DNA of 64,000 nt from assembly GCF_036867135.1 (NCBI RefSeq), contig NZ_JBAJIJ010000001.1, positions 1,302,001-1,366,000 on the forward strand, read 5' to 3'. The notes under the pieces were generated by a model. That model was not told where the DNA came from, ran no database searches, and saw only the letters and a list, made by a program, of their open reading frames with translations. This DNA is from Aeromicrobium sp. Sec7.5. GTDB lineage: Bacteria > Actinomycetota > Actinomycetes > Propionibacteriales > Nocardioidaceae. The first letter of the stretch is position 1. Every line of letters begins with the position of its first letter. Both the position numbers and the translations under genes were made by a program. Positions 22,260-34,612 of the stretch are shown piece after piece.

Positions 22260-25200
22260 GTGTACCTGAAGAGCCTCACGCTCCGCGGGTTCAAGTCGTT
22301 CGCCTCCTCCACGACCCTGGAGCTGGAGCCGGGCATCACGTGCGTCGTGGGCCCCAACGGCTCGGGCAAGTCCAACGTCGTCGACGCCCTCTCGTGGGTC
22401 ATGGGCGAGCAAGGCGCCAAGTCGCTGCGCGGCGGCAAGATGGAGGACGTCATCTTCGCCGGCACGTCCGGCCGTGCACCGCTCGGCCGCGCCGAGGTCG
22501 TGCTGACGATCGACAACTCCGACGGCGCCCTCCCGATCGAGTACAGCGAGGTCACGATCTCGCGCACGATGTTCCGCAACGGCGGCTCGGAGTACGCGAT
22601 CAACGGCAACACCGTGCGCCTGCTCGACGTGCAGGAGCTCCTGAGCGACTCGGGCATCGGGCGCGAGATGCACGTCATCGTCGGACAGGGTCAGCTCGAC
22701 TCCGTGCTGCGGGCCACGGCCGAGGAGCGCAGGGGCTTCATCGAGGAGGCTGCGGGCGTCCTCAAGCACCGCAAGCGCAAGGAGAAGGCGGTCCGCAAGC
22801 TCGAGGCGACGCAGGGCAACCTCACGCGTCTGGCCGACGTGCTCAACGAGCTGCGCCGCCAGCTCAAGCCCCTCGGGCGCCAGGCCGAGGTGGCGCGGCG
22901 GGCGGCCGTGATCCAGGCCGACGTGCGCGACTCCCGCGCCCGGCTGCTGGCCGACGACGTCGTGGGCGCCCAGCAGGTCATCGCCACCGAGCTGGCTGAC
23001 GAGTCGGCCCTGCGCGAGCGCCGCACGTCGGTCGAGACCGCGATCGCCCACGCCCGCCAGGCCGAGACCGAGCTCGAGGACCGCCTGCGTGACGACTCGC
23101 CGCGCCTGTCCGCGGCGCAGGAGGCGTGGTACGCCCTGTCCGGCGTGCGCGAGCGACTGCGTGGCACGGCGGGGCTGGCCACCGAGCGCGTGCGCCTGGC
23201 GGCCGTCGAGGCCGACGACCAGCACCACGGGCGCGATCCCGACGAGCTCGAGGCCGACGCCCGACGGGCGCAGGAGCAGCACGGGGTCCTGGCGCGCGAG
23301 GTCGCGGTCGCCACGACCCGCCTGCAGGAGGTGGTCGCCGGCCGCAGCGAGGCCGAGGCCGCCTACACGACCGAGGAGCGCCGCATCGCGGGCCTGCTGC
23401 GCGCTGCGGCCGACCAGCGCGAGGGTCTCGCGCGCCTCCACGGCCAGGTCAACGCGATCCGCCTGCGCGCCGGCGCCACGGACGCCGAGCTCGGACGCCT
23501 CACCTCCTCGCGCGACGACGCCGTCGCGCGAGCCGACTCGGCGCAGCAGGAGTTCACGGCGCTGGAGTCGCAGATCGCGGGCCTGTCGGCGGGGGAGTCG
23601 GGGCTCGACGAGCGGCTCGCCGCAGCCGAGAGCGAGCTCGGTGGCATCGACGCCGAGGTCGCCGAGATCGTGATGGCGGTGCAGGCCCTGGAGCGGGGCG
23701 AGGCCGCCCTGGTCGCACGCCGGGAGGCGCTCGAGATCGGTCTGGCCCGCAAGGACGGCGCCGGGGCGCTGCTCGCCGCGTCCGACGAGCTCAGTGGTCT
23801 CCTCGGTTCGGTGGCGGCGCTGCTGACCGTGCGCTCGGGCTACGAGGCAGCGATCGCCTCGGCGCTGGGCTCGGCCGCCGACGCCGTGGCGGTCGACCAC
23901 CTCGACACCGCCGTCGACGCGATGGAGAAGCTCAAGAGCGAGGACCTCGGACGCGCCGGCCTGCTCCTGGGCGCCGTCGACGGCAGTGCCGACGAGGGGG
24001 ACGACGCAGGCTGGCCGGGCCTTCCCGACTTCGCCACCTACGCCGTCGACGTGATCGATGGTCCGTCGACCCTCGACGCAGCCCTGCGCCGACTGCTCTT
24101 CAAGGTCGCCGTGGTCGACGATCTCGACCGTGCCCGGGCCCTCGTGCGCCAGGCCTCGGACGTCACGGCGGTGACGCGGGACGGCGACATGCTCGGTGCG
24201 CACTTCGCGTCGGGGGGCTCGACGTCGACCGAGAGCCTGATCGAGGTCAAGGCTGCCGTCGACGAGGCGGTCGCCGACCTCGACCGCACGCGTCACGAGC
24301 TGGAGCGCTCCCGGTTCGCGCAGCAGGGGCTGTCCGATCGGCGCCAGAAGGCCCAGGCTGCCGTCGACGCCGTGCTGGAGCAGCTGCACGAGTCCGATGC
24401 CGAGATGGCCGCAGTCGCGGAGTCGCTGGGTCGTCTCGGGTCCGCCGCCCGCGCCGCGCGGGCCGAGGCCGAGCGCCTCGAGCAGTCGATCGCCGAGGCC
24501 ACGGCGTCACAGGCACGCGACCTCGAGGGCCTCGCCGAGCTCGAGGACCGACTGGCGCAGGCGGAGTCGGCACCGGAGACCGAGCCCGACACGACCGAGC
24601 TCGAGGCCCTCGCCGAGGCGGCCTCCGCCTCGCGGCGCGCGGAGACCGAGGCGCGCCTGGCCCTGCGCACGAACGAGGAGCGGGCCCGGGCGCTGGAGGG
24701 TCAGGTCAGGGCCTTGGTGGAGTCGGCCGAGTCCGAGCGCCAGGCCCGGCGACGAGCGGCGGAGCGCCGCGCGCGTCAGGTGCGCGAGGCGGAGGTCGCC
24801 CGGGTCGTGATCGCGGCGACCGACCAGGTCCTCGTGCACCTCGGCCTGTCGATCGACCGGGCCGCCGCGCTGCGCACCGAGATCGAGCAGTCGCGAGCCA
24901 GCAGTGAGACCGAGCTGCGCGAGGTCCGCACCCGCCTGCGGGGGCTGAGCGAGGAGCTCGAGGCCCTGAAGGACTCCGTGCATCGCGACGAGATGGCCCG
25001 GGCCGAGCTGCGGATGCGGCTCGAGGCCCTGGAGTCCCGGTCGCTGGAGGAGCTGGGGCTCGAGGTCGAGGCCCTGGTGGTGGAGTACGGCCCGGAGGTC
25101 CCGGTGCCCACGTACGACGACGAGGGCGAGCCACTCGAGCCGCGGCCGTACGTGCGTGAGGAGCAGGCCAAGCGCCTGCGCACCGCCGAGCGTGGCCTCG

Positions 25201-25814
25201 CGATGCTGGGCAAGGTCAACCCGCTCGCCCTGGAGGAGTTCAGTGCCCTCGAGGAGCGGCACCAGTACCTGTCCGACCAGATGGCCGACCTGAAGAAGAC
25301 CTCCGCCGACCTCATGGCGATCGTCGAGGACGTCGACGCCACGGTCGAGCGGGTCTTCACGGAGGCCTGGTACGACGTCGAGCGCGAGTTCGAGGGGGTG
25401 TTCAGTCGCCTGTTCCCCGGGGGCGAGGGCCGACTGATCCTCACCGATCCGCAGAACATGCTGCTCACGGGCATCGAGGTCGAGGCCCGGCCGCCCGGCA
25501 AGAAGGTCAAGCGCCTCTCGCTGCTGTCGGGCGGTGAGCGCTCCTTGGTGGCGGTGGCGTTCCTGGTGGCGCTCTTCAAGGCGCGTCCGAGCCCCTTCTA
25601 CATCCTCGACGAGGTCGAGGCGGCGCTCGACGACACCAACCTCGGTCGTCTGCTCGAGATCTACGAGGAGCTGCGCGCCAACTCCCAGCTCGTCGTCATC
25701 ACGCACCAGAAGCGCACGATGGAGGTCGCCGACGCGCTCTACGGTGTCTCGATGCGGGGCGACGGCGTCTCGGCGGTCATCAGCCAACGGCTGCGGGAGC
25801 AGGAGCGCGTGTGA
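22260..25814 (+). CDS. smc: Chromosome segregation protein SMC
   Basis: This 1184-residue SMC has the N-terminal Walker A (GPNGSGKSN, about 32-40), long coiled-coil arms, a hinge around residues 500-650 (YEAAIASALGSAADAVAV) and a C-terminal head with LSGGERSLVAVAFL and the Walker B/D-loop FYILDEVEAALDDTN. It condenses and organises chromosomes with ScpA/ScpB, which are not in this window. The GTG at 22260 starts the conserved MYLKSLTLRGFKSFA. A downstream thioesterase gene overlaps its stop by 4 nt. In many actinobacteria smc is followed by ftsY; here the cyd cluster and others lie between. Confidence 0.97.
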   Translation: MYLKSLTLRGFKSFASSTTLELEPGITCVVGPNGSGKSNVVDALSWVMGEQGAKSLRGGKMEDVIFAGTSGRAPLGRAEVVLTIDNSDGALPIEYSEVTISRTMFRNGGSEYAINGNTVRLLDVQELLSDSGIGREMHVIVGQGQLDSVLRATAEERRGFIEEAAGVLKHRKRKEKAVRKLEATQGNLTRLADVLNELRRQLKPLGRQAEVARRAAVIQADVRDSRARLLADDVVGAQQVIATELADESALRERRTSVETAIAHARQAETELEDRLRDDSPRLSAAQEAWYALSGVRERLRGTAGLATERVRLAAVEADDQHHGRDPDELEADARRAQEQHGVLAREVAVATTRLQEVVAGRSEAEAAYTTEERRIAGLLRAAADQREGLARLHGQVNAIRLRAGATDAELGRLTSSRDDAVARADSAQQEFTALESQIAGLSAGESGLDERLAAAESELGGIDAEVAEIVMAVQALERGEAALVARREALEIGLARKDGAGALLAASDELSGLLGSVAALLTVRSGYEAAIASALGSAADAVAVDHLDTAVDAMEKLKSEDLGRAGLLLGAVDGSADEGDDAGWPGLPDFATYAVDVIDGPSTLDAALRRLLFKVAVVDDLDRARALVRQASDVTAVTRDGDMLGAHFASGGSTSTESLIEVKAAVDEAVADLDRTRHELERSRFAQQGLSDRRQKAQAAVDAVLEQLHESDAEMAAVAESLGRLGSAARAARAEAERLEQSIAEATASQARDLEGLAELEDRLAQAESAPETEPDTTELEALAEAASASRRAETEARLALRTNEERARALEGQVRALVESAESERQARRRAAERRARQVREAEVARVVIAATDQVLVHLGLSIDRAAALRTEIEQSRASSETELREVRTRLRGLSEELEALKDSVHRDEMARAELRMRLEALESRSLEELGLEVEALVVEYGPEVPVPTYDDEGEPLEPRPYVREEQAKRLRTAERGLAMLGKVNPLALEEFSALEERHQYLSDQMADLKKTSADLMAIVEDVDATVERVFTEAWYDVEREFEGVFSRLFPGGEGRLILTDPQNMLLTGIEVEARPPGKKVKRLSLLSGGERSLVAVAFLVALFKARPSPFYILDEVEAALDDTNLGRLLEIYEELRANSQLVVITHQKRTMEVADALYGVSMRGDGVSAVISQRLREQERV

Positions 25815-26314: not shown

Positions 26315-27199
26315 TCAGCCGATCACGACGTCGAGGGCGTGCGCGATCCACGGCGCGGCCAGGAACACGGTCGGCCCGACCAGCACGACGACCGAGATGG
26401 TCCAGGCGAGGGTCGTGGCCCACCACCGGACCGGGGGGTCCTGCAGGCGCTCGAGACGGAGCAGCGCCTCGCTGCCGATGCCCATCGCGCCGTCCGGAGC
26501 CTGGCTGCCGGCGAGCGTGACGATCGCCCCCGCCAGGGCACGGTCGCCCGTGACCCGGCGAGCGGCGTCGTCGGCGAGGAGCTCGACCATGACCCGGCTC
26601 TGCGCGAGCGGTGCATCGGTGCGCAGGATCCGGGGATAGGCGGCCCGGAGGAACTCGAAGCCCTCAAGGACGAGGTCGTGGCGGGCGCCGACGTGGGCGC
26701 GCTCGTGGGCGAGGACCGCGCGCAGCTCGTCCGCGCCCAGCTTGTCGATCGTGCCGCTGGAGACCACGACACGCGCCTGGGTGCGGTCGGGCAGGCAGTA
26801 GGCCACGAGCGCCTCGTGCTGGAGCACCCGCAGGGCCGGCGACCTGCCGTCCGGCTCGCCGAGCAGGTCGACGAGCTCGCGCTGTCGACGACGGCGGGTG
26901 CCGGTGCGCCGCCAGACCGTCCAGGCCGCCCACCAGAAGCGCGCCCACACGAGCACGCCGACCAGCAGCACCAGGACGTGCAGCGCGACGCGCGACGGGG
27001 ACGGGTCCTGCTCCGAGACCAGCCAGAGCGCGGTGGAGAGCCCGGCACCCGAGATCGCGAGGATCGCCGCGATCGCGAGTGACTGCCACATCACGATCCC
27101 GGCGGCGGGGGAGCGGTACGGCCAGGAGGCCCGCGCCAGCAGGGCCGGGACCGGGAGGGCCAGTGCCACCCCGATCAGGCCCAGCAGGACCGGTGTCAC
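26315..27199 (-). CDS. M56 family membrane metallopeptidase (BlaR1-like, no sensor domain)
   Basis: The 294-residue protein has N-terminal membrane helices (about 3-25, 35-60, 75-95), then the zinc site VLAHERAHVGARHD (HExxH) and a C-terminal membrane helix (ISVVVLVGPTVFLAAPWIA). This is the BlaR1/MecR1 peptidase module, but the extracellular penicillin-binding sensor domain is absent, so its signal is not a classical beta-lactam response. It likely cleaves or inactivates the BlaI-type repressor encoded just upstream, whose stop it overlaps (GTGA). Confidence 0.9.
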   Translation of the reverse strand: MTPVLLGLIGVALALPVPALLARASWPYRSPAAGIVMWQSLAIAAILAISGAGLSTALWLVSEQDPSPSRVALHVLVLLVGVLVWARFWWAAWTVWRRTGTRRRRQRELVDLLGEPDGRSPALRVLQHEALVAYCLPDRTQARVVVSSGTIDKLGADELRAVLAHERAHVGARHDLVLEGFEFLRAAYPRILRTDAPLAQSRVMVELLADDAARRVTGDRALAGAIVTLAGSQAPDGAMGIGSEALLRLERLQDPPVRWWATTLAWTISVVVLVGPTVFLAAPWIAHALDVVIG

Positions 27200-27570
27200 A
27201 CGCCGTCGAGCGCCCGTCGCAGGGCGGCCGCCTCCGCAGGATCGACCGACCGGGCGAAGTGGACGAGGGCGGAGGTGCGGTCGCCCGAGGCATCGAGCGC
27301 GGCGTCGATGAGCTCGGCGGTCGCGGACTCGCGCGACTGGCTCGGCGTGTACCGGAACGCGCGGCCGTCGCGCTCGCGGTCGACCATCTCCTTGGCGCCG
27401 AGGCGATCGAGGACGGTCATGACCGTCGTGTAGGCGAGGCCCCGGCCCTCGCCCGTGCCGGCCTCGAGAGCGTCCTGCACCTCGCGCACCGACATCGGCC
27501 CGGTGGCGTCCCACAGCACGTTCATGATGGCGCGCTCGAGCTCGCCGGGACGGGTCGTGGATCGGGTCAC
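27196..27570 (-). CDS. BlaI/MecI/CopY family transcriptional repressor
   Basis: The 124-residue winged-helix protein has the family pattern LERAIMNVLWDATGPMSVREVQ, followed by LAYTTVMTVLDRLGAKEMVDRERDGRAFRYTP. Members bind palindromic operators as dimers and are inactivated by proteolysis. The GTG start lies 6 nt after TAGTCT on the minus strand, so its mRNA is probably leaderless. That hexamer abuts and partly overlaps the palindrome at 27581-27597, which fits autorepression. The divergent neighbour is cydABDC, and two more palindromes lie nearer to it. Confidence 0.92.
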   Translation of the reverse strand: MTRSTTRPGELERAIMNVLWDATGPMSVREVQDALEAGTGEGRGLAYTTVMTVLDRLGAKEMVDRERDGRAFRYTPSQSRESATAELIDAALDASGDRTSALVHFARSVDPAEAAALRRALDGV

Positions 27571-27580
27571 GGGGCAAGAC

Positions 27581-27597
27581 TACTACGTGACGTAGGA
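27581..27597. promoter_or_regulatory. BlaI-type operator 1 (TACTAC-N5-GTAGGA)
   Basis: TACTAC-GTGAC-GTAGGA differs from the two perfect copies at a single base. It lies 10 bp from the repressor GTG and overlaps its probable -10. Confidence 0.7.
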
Positions 27598-27632
27598 CTC
27601 ATGGGTGTGGGCTCCGTCGCCCCTCCTCGGTG

Positions 27633-27649
27633 TACTACGATCTGTAGTA
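27633..27649. promoter_or_regulatory. BlaI-type operator 2 (perfect TACTAC-N5-GTAGTA)
   Basis: TACTAC-GATCT-GTAGTA, extended to 7-bp arms by flanking G and C. It is 56 bp before the cydA ATG. Confidence 0.8.
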
Positions 27650-27651
27650 CT

Positions 27652-27668
27652 TACTACGGCGCGTAGTA
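27652..27668. promoter_or_regulatory. BlaI-type operator 3 (perfect TACTAC-N5-GTAGTA)
   Basis: TACTAC-GGCGC-GTAGTA begins 19 bp after the start of operator 2, nearly two helix turns, so two dimers could bind side by side next to cydA. Confidence 0.8.
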
Positions 27669-27704
27669 GTTCGACTCCTCGAGACTCGAGACAGTGGGGC
27701 CAGC

Positions 27705-29126
27705 ATGGAAGCGCTCGACATCGCCCGGTGGCAGTTCGGCATCACGACCGTCTACCACTTCTTCTTCGTGCCGGTCACGATCGGCCTGATCTTCCTCGTC
27801 GCGATCCTCCAGACCTGCTGGTACCGCACCGGTGACGAGCGCTACCTGCGACTCACGCGCTTCTTCGGGAAGCTCTTCCTCATCAACTTCGCGATGGGGA
27901 TCGTCACGGGCATCGTGCAGGAGTTCCAGTTCGGGATGAACTGGAGCGACTACTCGCGGTTCGTCGGCGACGTGTTCGGCGCCCCGCTCGCGATCGAGGG
28001 GCTGCTCGCGTTCTTCATGGAGTCGACGTTCCTCGGACTCTGGATCTTCGGGTGGGACCGGCTCAAGCCGTCACTGCACCTCGCGACGATCTGGATCGCC
28101 GCCGTCGGCACCGTGCTGTCGGCCTACTTCATCCTCGCCGCCAACTCGTTCATGCAGAACCCGGTGGGCTTCGCCTTCAACGCCGAGAGCGGCCGCGCCG
28201 AGCTGACCGACTTCATGGCGGTCATGACGAATCCCGTCGTGCTCGCGACGTTCCCGCACACGATCTTCGCGTGCTTCATGGTCGGCGGCGCCGTGGTGGC
28301 CGGGGTCAGCCTCTGGCGGATGATGCGCCACCCAACTGAAGACGGGGACGCCTTCCGCACGTCGTTCCGCCTCGGTGCGGTGTTCCTGCTCGTGGCCGGG
28401 CTCGGCACGATGATCTCCGGCGACTTCCAGGGCAAGGTCATGACCGAGGTCCAGCCGATGAAGATGGCGGCGGCCGAGGGGTTGTACGAGGACGAGGCGC
28501 CCGCGGCCTTCTCCGCCCTAACGGTCGGGACGCTCGACGGCTCCGAGCCCGTCCTCGAGATCAAGGTCCCGCACCTGCTGTCGTACCTCGGGACGGGGAC
28601 GTGGGACGGCGAGATCCGTGGCATCAACTCGCTGCAGGCCGAGTACGAGGAGCTGTACGGACCGGGCGACTACGCCCCGAACATCCCCGTCACGTACTGG
28701 ACGTTCCGCGCGATGATCACGGCGGGCGGGCTCTCGATGGCGCTCGCGGCCTGGATGCTCTGGGCGACCCGCCGGGGGCGCAGCCCCTCGAGCCGGACCT
28801 TCACGGGCCGATGGATGCTCCGGTGGGCGGTCGTGCTCCCGTTCCTGCCGCTCGCGGCCAACTCGTTCGGCTGGATCTTCACCGAGATGGGCCGTCAGCC
28901 GTGGCTCGTGTTCGGTCTGCTGCCGACGTCCGCCGGAGTCTCGCCGAGCGTCTCGGCGGGGACGGTCCTCATGAGCCTGATCGGGTTCACGACGCTGTAC
29001 GGCGTGCTCGCGGTGATCGAGGTCAAGCTCCTGCTCCGCACGATCCGGCAGGGCCTTCCAGCGGCCGATCCGCCCACGCCCGACCACGACCGCGACCCGG
29101 ACGCACCGCTCGCGTTCGCCTACTGA
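27705..29126 (+). CDS. cydA: Cytochrome bd ubiquinol/menaquinol oxidase subunit I
   Basis: The 473-residue integral membrane protein has H18 in TVYHFFFVPVTIG (heme ligand), the GRQPW motif in FTEMGRQPWLVFG, and about nine hydrophobic helices. The quinol-binding loop is the short type. With CydB it forms the bd oxidase that reduces oxygen to water with high affinity, used at low oxygen or when the cytochrome c branch is blocked. It is first in cydABDC, downstream of the BlaI-type operators. The ATG at 27705 has a GGGG upstream. Confidence 0.96.
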   Translation: MEALDIARWQFGITTVYHFFFVPVTIGLIFLVAILQTCWYRTGDERYLRLTRFFGKLFLINFAMGIVTGIVQEFQFGMNWSDYSRFVGDVFGAPLAIEGLLAFFMESTFLGLWIFGWDRLKPSLHLATIWIAAVGTVLSAYFILAANSFMQNPVGFAFNAESGRAELTDFMAVMTNPVVLATFPHTIFACFMVGGAVVAGVSLWRMMRHPTEDGDAFRTSFRLGAVFLLVAGLGTMISGDFQGKVMTEVQPMKMAAAEGLYEDEAPAAFSALTVGTLDGSEPVLEIKVPHLLSYLGTGTWDGEIRGINSLQAEYEELYGPGDYAPNIPVTYWTFRAMITAGGLSMALAAWMLWATRRGRSPSSRTFTGRWMLRWAVVLPFLPLAANSFGWIFTEMGRQPWLVFGLLPTSAGVSPSVSAGTVLMSLIGFTTLYGVLAVIEVKLLLRTIRQGLPAADPPTPDHDRDPDAPLAFAY

Positions 29127-29157
29127 CCCCCCTTCGACCGGAACCTGGAGACCAACC

Positions 29158-30150
29158 ATGGAGCTCACGACCGTCTGGTTCGTGCTCATCGCCTTCCTGT
29201 GGACCGGCTACCTCGTGCTCGAGGGCTTCGACTTCGGTGTCGGCATGCTGATGCGTCTGCTCGCCCGTGACGAGACGGAGCGACGCGTGCTGCTCAACAC
29301 GATCGGCCCGGTCTGGGACGGCAACGAGGTGTGGCTCATCGTCGCCGGCGGCGCCACGTTCGCGGCGTTCCCCGAGTGGTACGCCACGTTGTTCAGCGCC
29401 TACTACGTGCCGCTGTTCGTCATCCTGGTCGCGTTGATCGTGCGTGCCGTCGGCTTCGAGTACCGGCACAAGCGGTCCGAGCCGGAGTGGAAGCGCCGCT
29501 GGGACCACGCGATCGTGTTCGGGTCGGTCGTGCCGGCGGTGCTGTGGGGTGTGGCCCTGGCCGGCATCGTGCACGGCATCCCGCTCGACGCCGACCACGA
29601 CTTCGTGGGGTCGCTCGCCGATCTCGTGACCCCGTACGCGCTCCTCGGCGGAGTCGTGACGCTGACGGTCTTCATCACGCACGGCGCCTTCTTCATCGCG
29701 CTCAAGACCGTCGGCGACATCCGTCACCGGGCCCGCGCCCTCGGCCTGCGCTGGGGCGGGGTCGCCGCGGTCGTCACGCTGGTCTTCGTCACCTGGACCG
29801 CCGGACGCGACGGCGACCTGAGCGTCCGGGTCGCCGCCGTGGTCGCCGTCGCCACGTTCCTGGCCGGGCTGGTCGCCGCCCGGGCCGGCCGCGAAGGGTG
29901 GGCGTTCACCGGCACGGCGCTCGCGGTCGCCGCGGTCGCCACGATGCTGTTCCTTGCGCTGTTCCCCGACGTCATGCCGTCGACCCTCGGGAGCGGCACG
30001 CTCACCACCACGAATGCGGCGTCCACGCCGTACACGCTGGAGATCATGACGTGGGTCGCGGCAGCCTTCACGCCGATCGTGATCGGTTACCAGGCGTGGT
30101 CCTACTGGGTGTTCCGCCGTCGCATCGGCGTGCACCACATCCCGGCATGA
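29158..30150 (+). CDS. cydB: Cytochrome bd oxidase subunit II
   Basis: The 330-residue membrane protein shows the CydB start TVWFVLIAFLWTGYLVLEGFD and GPVWDGNEVWLI, with about eight membrane helices. It is the structural partner of CydA. The gap after cydA is 31 nt. Its stop overlaps the cydD ATG as ATGA. Confidence 0.96.
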   Translation: MELTTVWFVLIAFLWTGYLVLEGFDFGVGMLMRLLARDETERRVLLNTIGPVWDGNEVWLIVAGGATFAAFPEWYATLFSAYYVPLFVILVALIVRAVGFEYRHKRSEPEWKRRWDHAIVFGSVVPAVLWGVALAGIVHGIPLDADHDFVGSLADLVTPYALLGGVVTLTVFITHGAFFIALKTVGDIRHRARALGLRWGGVAAVVTLVFVTWTAGRDGDLSVRVAAVVAVATFLAGLVAARAGREGWAFTGTALAVAAVATMLFLALFPDVMPSTLGSGTLTTTNAASTPYTLEIMTWVAAAFTPIVIGYQAWSYWVFRRRIGVHHIPA

Positions 30151-31865
30151 GCACCGGACACCCGATGGATGAGGTGCGAGCGCGGAACGAGCGAGGCTCG
30201 AAGCCCACGCCCACCAAGACCCTTCGAGGCTCGTCGCTGCGCTCCTCGCACCTCAGGGAGCGGGGTGGCACAGCTCCGGTCGACCCGCGCCTGCTGCGCC
30301 GGTCGAGTGCCGTGCGGGGGGCGTTGGGCGCGGCGGTCGGTCTCGCGCTGCTGGGCGCCGTCCTCCTGGTCGGCCAGGCGTGGGGGTTCGCCCGGCTCGT
30401 CGAGGAGGCCTTCGAGGCCTCGCGGATCGACACGGAGGTGCTCCTGCTCGCCGCCGGGTGCATCGCCGGTAGGGGTCTCGTCGCGTGGGCGACGGCTGCC
30501 GTGGCGTCCAGAGCTGCCCTGCGGGTCAGGGCCGAGCTGCGCGCGGCCGTCGTCGCCGACGTCCTCGACCCCCGCCGGCTGGGCCCCCGTCCGTCGTCGG
30601 GCCGGATCACCACGCTGCTCGGTCCGGGACTGGAACCGCTCGACGGATACGTCGGCCGCTTCCTGCCGCAGCTCGTCGTGACGGCACTGGTCCCACCCGT
30701 GGTGGTCGTGGTCCTGGCGGTCGTCGACCCCCTGTCGGCCGTCATCGTGGGGCTGACGGTGCCGCTCGTGATCGGGTTCCTCGTGCTGGTCGGCCTGGCG
30801 ACGAAGGACCAGCTCGACGCTCGCTGGGGCGAGCTCGCCCGGCTGGGGCGTCACTTCTCCGACGTCGTCGGCGGGGTCCGCACCCTGTTGGTGCTGGGCA
30901 GCCGGCAGGAGCGTGGCCTGGCCGTGGTGGGAGAACGGCACCGACGCGCGACGATGGCGGCCCTGCGCAGCGCCTTCCTGTCCTCGCTCGTGCTCGAGCT
31001 CTTCTCCACCTTGTCGATGGCGCTCGTGGCCGTCGCGACCGGGCTCCGCATCGTGCAGGGCGACCTGAGCCTGCAGACCGGCCTGTTCGTGCTGCTGCTC
31101 GCGCCGGAGGCCTACCTGCCGGTGCGCCGGCTGGGGTCGCAGTTCCACGACAGCGCCGCCGGGGTCAGCGCGGCGCGCGAGGCGATGGACCTCCTGGACT
31201 CACCTCGCCACACCGGGACCGCCGCGCCGACCGCTCGTGCGCAGATCGTCGTGCGCTCGATGAGCGTCACCCGCGACGGTGGATCGACGGTCAGCGTCCC
31301 CCGCCTCACGGTCGGTCCCGGGGAGCTCGTCGCGGTCGCCGGTCCGTCCGGGATCGGGAAGTCGACCCTGCTGGAGGTGCTGCTCGGTCTCGTCCCTCCT
31401 GACTCCGGGACCGTGACGGTCGCCGGCGTGCCGATCGAGGACCTGGACGTGGTCGCGTGGCACCGACGGGTCGCGTGGGTGCCCCAGGTCCCCGCCGTCC
31501 CTGCCGGCACGATCGCCGACGCGGTCCGGCTCGGCACCGCCGGGTCGCGCACGCAGGTGGTCGCGGCGTTGGCGGACGCGGGGGCCGAGGACCTCGATCC
31601 CGATCGGGTGGTGCGCGAGGACGCCGGGGACCTGTCGGCAGGGGAGCGCCGGCGCGTCGCGATCGCCCGGGCTCTCCTGCGGGTGCGTCAGGGCGACGTC
31701 GACCTGCTGCTCCTCGACGAGCCCACGGCCGGACTCGACGCCGAGCGCGAGGACCGGGTCATGCAGGCCGTGCGCGACCTCGGCGTCACGACCCTCGTGG
31801 TCGCGCACCACGCGCGGGTCCTCGAGGCGGCCGACCGGGTCGTGCGGCTGGGTGATACCCGATGA
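30147..31865 (+). CDS. cydD: Thiol reductant ABC exporter subunit CydD
   Basis: The 572-residue ABC half-transporter has a six-helix membrane domain (about 55-310) and an ATPase domain with Walker A GPSGIGKSTL, signature LSAGERRRVAIARALL and Walker B LLLLDEPTAGLD. CydDC exports thiols or heme-related reductant needed to assemble cytochrome bd. The ATG overlaps the cydB stop. Residues about 9-36 are encoded by an imperfect inverted repeat (30171-30254) that looks like an intergenic element caught in the coding sequence, so the N-terminus is about 40 residues longer than expected before the conserved VDPRLLRRS. Confidence 0.92.
   Translation: MSTGHPMDEVRARNERGSKPTPTKTLRGSSLRSSHLRERGGTAPVDPRLLRRSSAVRGALGAAVGLALLGAVLLVGQAWGFARLVEEAFEASRIDTEVLLLAAGCIAGRGLVAWATAAVASRAALRVRAELRAAVVADVLDPRRLGPRPSSGRITTLLGPGLEPLDGYVGRFLPQLVVTALVPPVVVVVLAVVDPLSAVIVGLTVPLVIGFLVLVGLATKDQLDARWGELARLGRHFSDVVGGVRTLLVLGSRQERGLAVVGERHRRATMAALRSAFLSSLVLELFSTLSMALVAVATGLRIVQGDLSLQTGLFVLLLAPEAYLPVRRLGSQFHDSAAGVSAAREAMDLLDSPRHTGTAAPTARAQIVVRSMSVTRDGGSTVSVPRLTVGPGELVAVAGPSGIGKSTLLEVLLGLVPPDSGTVTVAGVPIEDLDVVAWHRRVAWVPQVPAVPAGTIADAVRLGTAGSRTQVVAALADAGAEDLDPDRVVREDAGDLSAGERRRVAIARALLRVRQGDVDLLLLDEPTAGLDAEREDRVMQAVRDLGVTTLVVAHHARVLEAADRVVRLGDTR
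30171..30254. repeat. Imperfect inverted repeat inside cydD 5' coding region
   Basis: The left arm starts GAGGTGCGAG and runs to GCTCGAAGC; the right arm runs from CTTCGAGGCTCG to CTCGCACCTC. Most positions pair across about 33 bases. It resembles palindromic intergenic repeats common in Nocardioidaceae. A decayed relative may lie at 26270-26305 (GTTCGCACCTCGACCAGCGG). Confidence 0.6.
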
Positions 31866-33451
31866 GGCGGCGCCTGCTCCTGGGGGCGGGGCTGGCGGCG
31901 ACCGCCCAGCTCGCTGCCACGGGCCTGCTCCTGACGTCGGCCTGGCTCATCGTGCGGGCCGCCGAGCAGCCGCCCGTGCTGTACCTCATGGTGGCCATCG
32001 TCGGAGTGCGGTTCTTCGGCGTCGGACGCGCTGCGGCGCGGTACGCCGAACGACTCGTCACCCACGACGTCGCGCTGGAGGCGGCGGTCCGCACCCGGGT
32101 CGCGGTCTATGCCGCCGTCGCACGACTCGCGCCCCACGGCCTCGGTGGCCGGCGCCACGGCGACGTCGTGCAGCAGGCGGTCGAGGACGTCGACACGGTG
32201 GGTGACCGGTTGCTCCGCGTCCGCCTGCCGTGGTGGTCGGCGCTCACGGTCTCGGTCGCCCTGACGGCGGTCGTGGCCTGGCTCGCGCCGTGGGCGGGAG
32301 TCGTCGTCGCCGCCCAGGCCGTCGTGACGCTCGTCGCGCTGCGCCTGGTCGTGCCGCGCCGATCCGGAGCCGTCGGTGCGTCGCCGCTCGCGGCGGACGT
32401 CACCGAGGCGGCCCGCACCTCGGCCGAGCTGACCGTCCTCGGGGTGGCGGTGGACGCCGTCGCGCGGGCCGAGGCCGAGATCGCCCGCGCCGCTCGCGAC
32501 GACCGACGCCGTGCGGGCGCCGGCGGTGCAGGGTCGGCGATCGTCCTGGGTCTCGCGGCCGTGGCCTGCGTCGTCGTGGCACTCGTGGTCGCGCCGGCAC
32601 TCGCCGCCGGGTCCCTGGCGCCGGTCCTCGTCGGGGTCGTGCTGCTCGCGCCGCTGGCCCTCGCCGACGCCCTGGACCCCGTCGCCGAGGCTGAGCGACG
32701 TCGCCCCGTCGTCTCGGCTGCCGAGGGCCGGGTGGCGGCCCTCGTCGGGGCCCGGCCCTCGGTGGTGGAGCCGGCCGCGCCGTCCGCCGCGCCGTGTGAC
32801 ACGACGATCGAGCTCGAGGGCGTGACGATCGGCTGGGACCGCGACCTGGTGCGCGGCGTCACCTGGCGGGTCGGACCAGGTGAGGTCGTCGGCGTGAGGG
32901 GGCCGAGCGGCAGTGGGAAGAGCACACTGGCGCTCACGCTGGCCCGGATGGTGACTCCCCGCGCCGGCAGGGTGCGCATCGGTGGGGTCGACGTGGCGGA
33001 CCTGCGCCCCGCGGTCGTGCGGTCCCTGGTGGGGATCCTCGGCCAGGACGAGGCGATCTTCGACACGACAGTGCGTCAGAACCTGCTGATCGCCCAGCCG
33101 TCCGCCGACGACCCGAGCCTGCTCGCGGCGATGGCCCGGGCCGGACTGGAGCTCGAGCTGGACCGGACGGTGGGGGAGCGCGGGTCGCGGCTGTCGGGGG
33201 GCGAGCGGCAACGACTGGCGCTCGCGCGGCTGCTCCTCGGGGGTCACCGGGTGCTGGTGCTCGACGAGCCGACCGAGCACCTCGACGCCCCCGTGGCGCG
33301 TGCGCTCGTCGAGGACGTCCTCCGGCTCGCCCCGGCGCACACCGTCATCCTGGTGTCGCACGACCCTGCCGTCCTGGCGCGCTGCGACACGGTGCTGGAT
33401 CTGGGCCTCGACCAAGGGCGCCGGAGCGCTCGGGTCGGCGCCGTCGCCTAG
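31862..33451 (+). CDS. cydC: Thiol reductant ABC exporter subunit CydC
   Basis: The 529-residue half-transporter has TLLTSAWL-type first helices (LLLTSAWLIVRAAEQPP is the CydC hallmark), Walker A GPSGSGKSTL, signature LSGGERQRLALARLLL and Walker B VLVLDEPTEHLD. It pairs with CydD. The two genes overlap by 4 nt. The stop codon TAG is also the first half of the TAGGGT hexamer that may drive ftsY. Confidence 0.94.
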   Translation: MRRRLLLGAGLAATAQLAATGLLLTSAWLIVRAAEQPPVLYLMVAIVGVRFFGVGRAAARYAERLVTHDVALEAAVRTRVAVYAAVARLAPHGLGGRRHGDVVQQAVEDVDTVGDRLLRVRLPWWSALTVSVALTAVVAWLAPWAGVVVAAQAVVTLVALRLVVPRRSGAVGASPLAADVTEAARTSAELTVLGVAVDAVARAEAEIARAARDDRRRAGAGGAGSAIVLGLAAVACVVVALVVAPALAAGSLAPVLVGVVLLAPLALADALDPVAEAERRRPVVSAAEGRVAALVGARPSVVEPAAPSAAPCDTTIELEGVTIGWDRDLVRGVTWRVGPGEVVGVRGPSGSGKSTLALTLARMVTPRAGRVRIGGVDVADLRPAVVRSLVGILGQDEAIFDTTVRQNLLIAQPSADDPSLLAAMARAGLELELDRTVGERGSRLSGGERQRLALARLLLGGHRVLVLDEPTEHLDAPVARALVEDVLRLAPAHTVILVSHDPAVLARCDTVLDLGLDQGRRSARVGAVA

Positions 33452-33460
33452 GGTGAATCC

Positions 33461-34612
33461 GTGTCGACCGAGCTGCTGCTGATCATCGCCCTGTCCGCGA
33501 TCGTCCTGTTCGCGCTCGTCGCGACGCTGCTGATGCGTCGTGGCGACGAGCTGCCGCCCACGGCCGAGTCGGAGCTGGAGACCCGCGAGGAGATCCTGCA
33601 TCCGGAGGTGCTGGGTAGCGGCGACGAACCGGAGCCCGACGACGACCTTTCGCCGACGGGCCCCGGCACCACGACGCTCGAGCGGCCCGAGTCGCCCGCG
33701 GGCCGGCTCGTCCGCCTGCGGTCGCGCCTGGCCCGATCCAACTCGACGCTCGGCAAGGGCCTGCTCGCGATCCTGGGTCGGGCCGACCTCGACCAGGCGG
33801 CCTGGGACGAGCTGGAGGAGACGCTGCTCGCGGCCGACGTCGGCACCGGGCCCACGACCGAGCTCGTCGACCGGCTGCGCACGCGACTGCGCGTGGAAGG
33901 GTCCACCGACACCGACCGGGCCCGCGCCATCCTGCGCGAAGAGCTCGTGAGCCTCGTGGGCCCCGAGCTCGACCGCAGCCTGCACACCACGGGCGACGAG
34001 GGCCACCCCGGGGTCGTCCTGGTCGTCGGCGTCAACGGCACCGGCAAGACCACCACCGTCGGCCGTCTCGCTCGAGTCCTGGTCGCCGACGACCGCCGTG
34101 TCGTCCTCGGCGCGGCCGACACGTTCCGGGCCGCCGCGGCCGATCAGCTGCAGACCTGGGGCGACCGAGTGGGCGCGCCGGTCGTGCGCGGCCCTGAGGG
34201 CGGCGACCCGGCCAGCGTCGGCTTCGACACCGTCAAGTCCGGCATCGAGACCGGCGCCGACGTCGTCGTGGTCGACACCGCGGGCCGGCTCCACACCAAG
34301 TCCGGGCTGATGGACGAGCTCGGCAAGGTCAAGCGGGTCGTCGAGAAGCAGGCTCGCGTCACCGAGGTGCTCCTCGTGATCGACGCCACGACGGGCCAGA
34401 ACGGCCTCACGCAGGCCCGCGTGTTCAGCGAGGTCGTCGACGTCACGGGCATCGTGCTGACCAAGCTCGACGGCACGGCCAAGGGCGGCATCGTCGTCGC
34501 GGTCCAGCGCGAGCTCGGCGTGCCCGTCAAGTTCGTCGGCCTGGGCGAGGGGCCCGACGACCTCGCCCCGTTCGACGCCGAGGAGTTCGTCGACGCGCTG
34601 CTCGGGGACTGA
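33461..34612 (+). CDS. ftsY: Signal recognition particle receptor FtsY
   Basis: The 383-residue protein has an N-terminal membrane helix (about 4-25), an acidic linker, the NG domain with GVNGTGKTTTVGRLA, DTFRAAAADQL, DTAGRLHTKSG and TKLDGTAKGG. It docks ribosome-SRP complexes at the membrane. The GTG lies 6 nt after TAGGGT (33449-33454), a leaderless candidate whose -10 overlaps the cydC stop. ffh, its partner GTPase, lies 4.1 kb downstream. Confidence 0.96.
   Translation: MSTELLLIIALSAIVLFALVATLLMRRGDELPPTAESELETREEILHPEVLGSGDEPEPDDDLSPTGPGTTTLERPESPAGRLVRLRSRLARSNSTLGKGLLAILGRADLDQAAWDELEETLLAADVGTGPTTELVDRLRTRLRVEGSTDTDRARAILREELVSLVGPELDRSLHTTGDEGHPGVVLVVGVNGTGKTTTVGRLARVLVADDRRVVLGAADTFRAAAADQLQTWGDRVGAPVVRGPEGGDPASVGFDTVKSGIETGADVVVVDTAGRLHTKSGLMDELGKVKRVVEKQARVTEVLLVIDATTGQNGLTQARVFSEVVDVTGIVLTKLDGTAKGGIVVAVQRELGVPVKFVGLGEGPDDLAPFDAEEFVDALLGD

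Follow-up and report, generated by a model that had tools for sequence, protein, structure and literature searches.

Cytochrome bd is a backup oxidase that helps mycobacteria to tolerate drugs targeting respiration. The closest described relatives of the system considered here are the BlaI repressor and the BlaR protease of Mycobacterium tuberculosis (Rv1846c/Rv1845c). PMC5473688 reports, citing Sala 2009, that this BlaI binds the promoters of cytochrome bd and of ATP synthase, a precedent stronger than the effect of a mycobacterial BlaI on respiratory genes that an earlier note on the DNA analysed below had invoked. Amoxicillin-clavulanate induces both blaR-blaI and cydAB in M. tuberculosis, and BlaR is described as a protease without an extracellular sensor, the trigger of which is an open question (PMC5473688). 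Repression by BlaI of Rv1303, a gene of the atp operon, was demonstrated by EMSA and qRT-PCR (PMC12565901), and a TnSeq study reported that blaR is essential when iron is supplied as heme or hemoglobin (PMC7058343). Additionally, blaC belongs to the published BlaI regulon. That a sensor-less BlaI/BlaR pair touches respiration is thus already known from M. tuberculosis; the locus described here is a cis-linked form of such a system.

The window, a 64,000-nucleotide stretch of the genome of Aeromicrobium sp. Sec7.5, a soil actinobacterium of the Nocardioidaceae, contains a blaI-M56 gene pair divergent from cydABDC (Table 1). Since the three palindromes upstream of cydA are very probably BlaI binding sites, it is most likely respiration, and not antibiotic resistance, that the pair controls. 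The interval between the GTG of blaI and the ATG of cydA (27571-27704) is exactly 134 bp long, in agreement with the length given in the earlier note. Overlaps of 4 bp join the M56 gene to the blaI stop codon, cydB to cydD and cydD to cydC (the last as ATGA). The assignment of cydD is based on its position and on similarity to CydD-like ABC proteins found beside the cyd genes of other genomes. As seen from its surroundings (22260-25814 and 27705-34612), the blaI-M56::cydABDC block is bordered on one side by an smc-like gene with a thioesterase gene after it, and on the other by ftsY. Because ftsY starts 9 bp past the end of cydC, this essential secretion gene may be co-transcribed with the bd oxidase operon.

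Table 1. Features of the blaI-M56::cydABDC locus, in window coordinates, and two related features elsewhere in the genome, in the coordinates of their own loci.
Feature	Position	Strand	Basis or remark
M56/M48-like membrane zinc metalloprotease, 294 aa	26315..27199	-	no sensor domain
blaI, BlaI/MecI-family winged-helix repressor, 124 aa, GTG start	27196..27570	-	Pfam Penicillinase_R PF03965
Probable operator O1, blaI-proximal, TACTACGTGACGTAGGA	27581..27597	.	1/12 half-site letters off TACTAC-N5-GTAGTA
Probable operator O2, TACTACGATCTGTAGTA	27633..27649	.	exact TACTAC-N5-GTAGTA
Probable operator O3, cydA-proximal, TACTACGGCGCGTAGTA	27652..27668	.	exact TACTAC-N5-GTAGTA
cydA, cytochrome bd subunit I	27705..29126	+	PF01654, 562.6 bits
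cydB, cytochrome bd subunit II	29158..30150	+	PF02322, 369.6 bits
cydD, CydDC ABC exporter half, start codon tentative	30147..31865	+	open frame, position
cydC, CydDC ABC exporter half	31862..33451	+	ABC_tran, 103 bits
TCCGAC-N5-GTCGTA, both ctaC-ctaD copies	L300 1501-1517, L303 1501-1517
Near-duplicate BlaI-M56 cassette	L051 1265-10559, L049 (G000 C2:322-332k, C1:192-206k)

Two perfect copies of TACTAC-N5-GTAGTA and one with a single change had been noticed in the interval, and direct reading of the sequence finds all three where they had been placed. O1 occupies the stretch 11-27 bp before the start codon of blaI; the spacing from O2 to O3 is 19 bp. The description of the latter two as flanking cydA is loose, both being located 37-72 bp upstream of this gene. 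A scan of the window with at most one mismatch gave three matches, all in the interval, where 0.00 are expected from dinucleotide shuffles. When the 134-bp interval itself was shuffled 20,000 times, a site of this quality arose in only one shuffle. The exact motif, searched genome-wide as the earlier note had proposed, occurs twice in 3,417,358 bases, both times in the blaI-cydA interval. A genome scan with two mismatches was discarded as a site finder, its 34 sites (against 188 for a control pattern) being mostly noise. No DosR or Rex boxes are present in the window interval at the thresholds used.

The palindrome and CydA were searched in 198 genomes of the family, and the DNA upstream of cydA was compared. 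This comparison covered 127 cydA promoters, 68 with a divergent adjacent BlaI gene (BlaI+) and 59 without (BlaI-), a site being called where at most one of the 12 half-site letters differed. At least one site is found in 68 of 68 BlaI+ promoters, compared with 1 of 59 BlaI- promoters (Fisher p 8e-36, with each promoter counted as independent despite kinship); owing to shared ancestry the promoters in the two groups are not independent of one another, and only 2 changes are needed to account for the BlaI label on a CydA tree with 30 rows. The sole BlaI- promoter with a site (G071) has blaI-M56 about 2.8 kb upstream, and two genomes with two cydA genes each (G072 and G057) carry sites at the BlaI-adjacent copy only. 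A reversed-pattern control gave zero sites across all promoters examined. Within the genus, BlaI orthologues of at least 68% identity are confined to genomes with the divergent arrangement, the BlaI proteins found elsewhere being weaker paralogues of at most 49% identity. Furthermore, M56 is present in nearly all BlaI+ loci.

Stacking of 66 sites from Aeromicrobium and 99 from other genera revealed nearly invariant half-sites around a drifting N5. Half-site variation mainly consists of T or G at position 4 paired with A or C at position 14, to which Aeromicrobium adds A or C at position 2 with T or G at position 16. Neighbouring sites are spaced by 19 bp in 50 cases among BlaI+ promoters, a third site lies 43-54 bp off in most Aeromicrobium, and a counterpart of O1 is present in all 22 BlaI+ Aeromicrobium promoters examined. 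Fixed half-sites, fixed spacing and a drifting spacer are the pattern expected from selection on a dimeric DNA-binding protein. The divergent blaI and cydA genes of Leifsonia (L235) are accompanied by a shifted operator, TTCTAC-N5-GTAGAA, present twice at a distance of 24 bp; repressor and operator have possibly changed together.

Many BlaI- promoters carry sites of other types. A perfect GGGAC-N4-GTCCC core, DosR-box-like when set against the DosR consensus, is found in 21 of the 59, and a TTGTGA-N6-TCACAA site, Rex-like by the Rex consensus, in 8 others; at the same threshold, sites of either type are found in 0 of the 68 BlaI+ promoters. The DosR-box-like palindromes are located about 75-190 bp upstream of cydA (e.g. 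L105, L108, L115 and L119). The promoters of these relatives serve the same target operon as in the window, with sensing presumably left to a two-component system or to a repressor that responds to NADH. This suggests that BlaI/M56 conveys the same sort of information, that is oxygen, redox or respiratory status, and the presence of such sites at many BlaI- and at zero BlaI+ promoters favours a respiratory or redox signal over a beta-lactam.

The 80 best BlaI relatives from named genomes, a selection that leans towards the window BlaI, include 35 with cyd genes near BlaI-M56 (31 with cydA in the DNA compared, 4 with other cyd genes). The divergent layout occurs in Aeromicrobium, Nocardioides, Kribbella, Microlunatus, Desertihabitans and Avipropionibacterium, and also in Actinoplanes, Actinomycetospora, Leifsonia and Ruania. 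Micromonospora possesses a co-directional blaI-M56-cydA-cydB cluster with an operator located some 21-27 bp before the BlaI match and a Pfam-confirmed CydA about 40% identical to that of the window, while Knoellia has the co-directional order cydD-cydC-blaI-M56, with blaI overlapping the end of cydC. In a BlaI tree with few resolved forks, the cyd label needs 9 changes.

Six genomes of Mycobacteriales (three Mycobacterium species, Mycobacteroides chelonae, Rhodococcus koreensis and Nocardia niigatensis) have no cydA in the DNA examined around blaI-M56. The strict operator TACKAC-N5-GTMGTA occurs 28 times in their approximately 41 Mb, against 36 for the control, and judged from sequence the signal is one of site location, not of site number. 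The operator stands upstream of blaI in 6 of 6 genomes, of cydA in 6 of 6 and of atpI-atpB in 5 of 6, and these positions account for 17 of the 28 sites; at cydA, it directly precedes the gene in the closest case and lies about 110 bp away in the farthest, with most distances below 40 bp. The site at atpI-atpB agrees with the reported control of Rv1303-atp by BlaI (PMC12565901), and the conserved operator leads to the prediction that mycobacterial BlaI controls cydA directly. Together with the co-occurrence at 127 promoters and the in-line cyd layouts, the cydA operators of Mycobacteriales lend support to the proposal of the earlier note that the palindromes are BlaI operators through which the pair would switch cydABDC. 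The mycobacterial operator is also found before genes for small membrane proteins (L354 1501-1517, L370 1513-1529 and L364 1501-1517), of the DUF4383 type in two Mycobacterium and of the DUF3817 type in Mycobacteroides chelonae.

In the whole Aeromicrobium genome, 0 of 9 relaxed-consensus sites stand at a recognisable beta-lactamase gene, a class of loci that the earlier note had also suggested scanning. Control of ATP synthase as in Mycobacterium is not claimed: the degenerate TACGACCTCGAGTAGGA, found some 135 bp before atpB, extends over the end of the preceding atpI-like gene and is kept only in the window species and four near relatives, with a variant in one more. Control of the aa3 oxidase by BlaI was likewise set aside. 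Both ctaC-ctaD copies, and ctaC of three sister species, are preceded at 61-69 bp by TCCGAC-N5-GTCGTA with a variable N5. This site was not found in other BlaI+ Aeromicrobium, and as it can equally be read as CGACA-N3-TGTCG, it may be that of a different regulator. Two contigs carry a near-duplicate cassette in which DsbA-like, SURF1 and ResB genes come after a second BlaI-M56 pair. The cassette also includes genes for thioredoxin-like and DsbD/CcdA-like proteins, an ArsR-type regulator and a P-type ATPase, and has its own one-mismatch operator as well as TCCTAC-N5-GTAGGA sites. A fourth BlaI gene, without adjacent M56, is found beside a CopD-CtaG fusion gene (L050 4973-7937, G000 C2:313k), and the TACTAT-N5-ATAGTA palindromes near it suggest that BlaI paralogues have operator variants of their own.

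Locus anatomy, operator conservation and the co-occurrence of repressor and operator are read directly from the sequences; dimer binding, repression and cleavage we infer from knowledge of the family. BlaI dimers on O2 and O3, the adjacent pair upstream of cydA, would block transcription of cydABDC, and a dimer on O1 would limit the blaI-M56 operon itself. Disturbed electron flow through the main chain, or a disturbed membrane environment, would activate the M56 protease, which would cut BlaI at His104-Phe105, beside the conserved phenylalanine. Cleaved BlaI would leave the DNA, cytochrome bd oxidase and the CydDC exporter would be made, and fresh BlaI and M56 produced alongside would reset the switch. 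BlaI could in principle be an activator instead of a repressor. We regard it as highly likely that BlaI acts through O1-O3 on cydABDC; the full chain, including cleavage of BlaI by M56, is reasonably probable, and the chances that the trigger is a respiratory or redox signal are about even. Besides low oxygen and a block of the main oxidase, candidate signals include heme or porphyrin stress, given that M. tuberculosis requires blaR on heme or hemoglobin iron (PMC7058343).

The M56 protein scores over the cut-off for Peptidase_M48 (40.9 bits) and below that for Peptidase_M56 (24.6 bits, cut-off 31), for which reason it is not filed here as a BlaR1 receptor. Its HExxH motif (H165, E166, H169) and E206 are invariant in 41 homologues. 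The predicted structure (mean pLDDT 89.8) aligns best with the transmembrane/protease part of S. aureus BlaR1 (8exs; Z 12.3, rmsd 5.6 over 219 residues), the next matches being BepA and ZMPSTE24, and judged by this model the protein would work like the protease half of a BlaR1 receptor. It ends after the last membrane helix, as do complete homologues of about 282-302 aa, and a penicillin-binding sensor domain is absent from it and from the 41 family homologues; length, alignment and predicted fold all bear out the earlier remark that this M56 protein lacks a penicillin-sensing domain. M56 has no recognisable sensor. Cys135, invariant in 41 cyd-linked homologues, was rejected as a cyd-specific redox sensor and is regarded as a mark of the subfamily, because further M56 proteins of the subfamily, the mycobacterial ones among them, have it too. 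The missing sensor bears on the possibility that the pair senses beta-lactams or cell-wall damage and switches on the bd oxidase within a response to envelope stress, along the lines of a proposal made for M. tuberculosis BlaI. This reading draws on the origin of the proteins in the BlaI/BlaR1 family, on the induction of M. tuberculosis blaR-blaI and cydAB by amoxicillin-clavulanate (PMC5473688) and on blaC in the published regulon, but with no penicillin-binding sensor among 41 M56 homologues, no recognisable beta-lactamase gene at the 9 relaxed genome sites and hypoxia/redox-type boxes in place of the operator at BlaI- promoters, we consider it unlikely.

BlaI itself passes the Penicillinase_R profile (PF03965) with 88 bits (cut-off 22.6), has M. 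tuberculosis BlaI as its best solved relative (2g9w, phmmer E 1.8e-24) and, as is usual in the family, is encoded beside palindromic sites that are its probable operators. Its Phe105 is invariant in 15 aligned cyd-linked BlaI proteins and takes the place of Phe102 in the S. aureus repressor, which directly follows the bond cut by BlaR1; the P1 residue of the putative cleavage site is His104 in the window, compared with Asn in S. aureus. CopY is a BlaI-family regulator that senses metals directly, and a CopY-like C-terminal Cys motif is found in 0 of the 15 aligned proteins. The invariant phenylalanine at the putative cleavage position and the missing motif, together with the 4-bp overlap of M56 with blaI and the presence of M56 in nearly all BlaI+ loci, argue against direct sensing of a small molecule or metal by a BlaI that regulates cydABDC while M56 has another substrate; such a scheme appears rather improbable, although metal-sensing members of the family such as CopY do exist and the BlaI gene beside CopD/CtaG (contig C2) has no adjacent M56. 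That the palindromes belong to another regulator, with BlaI as an incidental neighbour, is most improbable: gene order alone is no proof of control, but throughout the family the sites come and go together with BlaI, and the same operator is found upstream of blaI where blaI lies away from cydA.

Beyond control of the bd oxidase by BlaI and M56, a broader and still tentative interpretation, which we hold with more doubt than confidence, is that sensor-less BlaI/M56 is an old actinobacterial regulator of aerobic energy metabolism, in which M56 would sense a respiratory or heme-related signal within the membrane and the targets would be cytochrome bd, ATP synthase and, in some lineages, perhaps the aa3 oxidase. 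If so, control of beta-lactamase in mycobacteria would be a secondary role, with the penicillin-sensing BlaR1 as a specialised relative. In the open-licence literature, we found no description of blaI beside cydA or of blaI-M56::cydABDC with three operators, of the spread of this arrangement over several actinobacterial orders, of the alternation of BlaI with DosR-/Rex-type sites at cydA, or of a shared operator at cydA of Mycobacteriales. The cis-linked version occurs in non-pathogenic Aeromicrobium, Nocardioides and Micromonospora, and in the window repressor, protease, three putative operators and target lie together in about 7 kb, which makes the sensing step directly approachable.

The BlaI/BlaR1 and MecI/MecR1 systems of S. 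aureus share with this locus the repressor family, the membrane zinc protease fold, the divergent and, here, putatively autoregulated layout and the phenylalanine of the putative cleavage site. They differ in having a penicillin-binding domain, which the window M56 lacks, in their target, beta-lactamase or PBP2a instead of the oxidase encoded from the divergent cydA, and in their operator, the window type being TACKAC-N5-GTMGTA. SenX3-RegX3 also controls a mycobacterial oxidase gene (cydB), but is a two-component system without a protease (PMC7719681). M. tuberculosis BlaI/BlaR comes closest, with the nearest solved BlaI and, as here, a sensor-less protease, and mycobacterial relatives have the same operator family as the window at their blaI, cydA and atp loci. 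However, blaI-blaR lies away from cydA in the mycobacterial genomes that were compared, and blaC is a published target in M. tuberculosis, whereas the window pair is divergent from cydABDC with three probable operators between them and both exact sites of its genome are at blaI-cydA.
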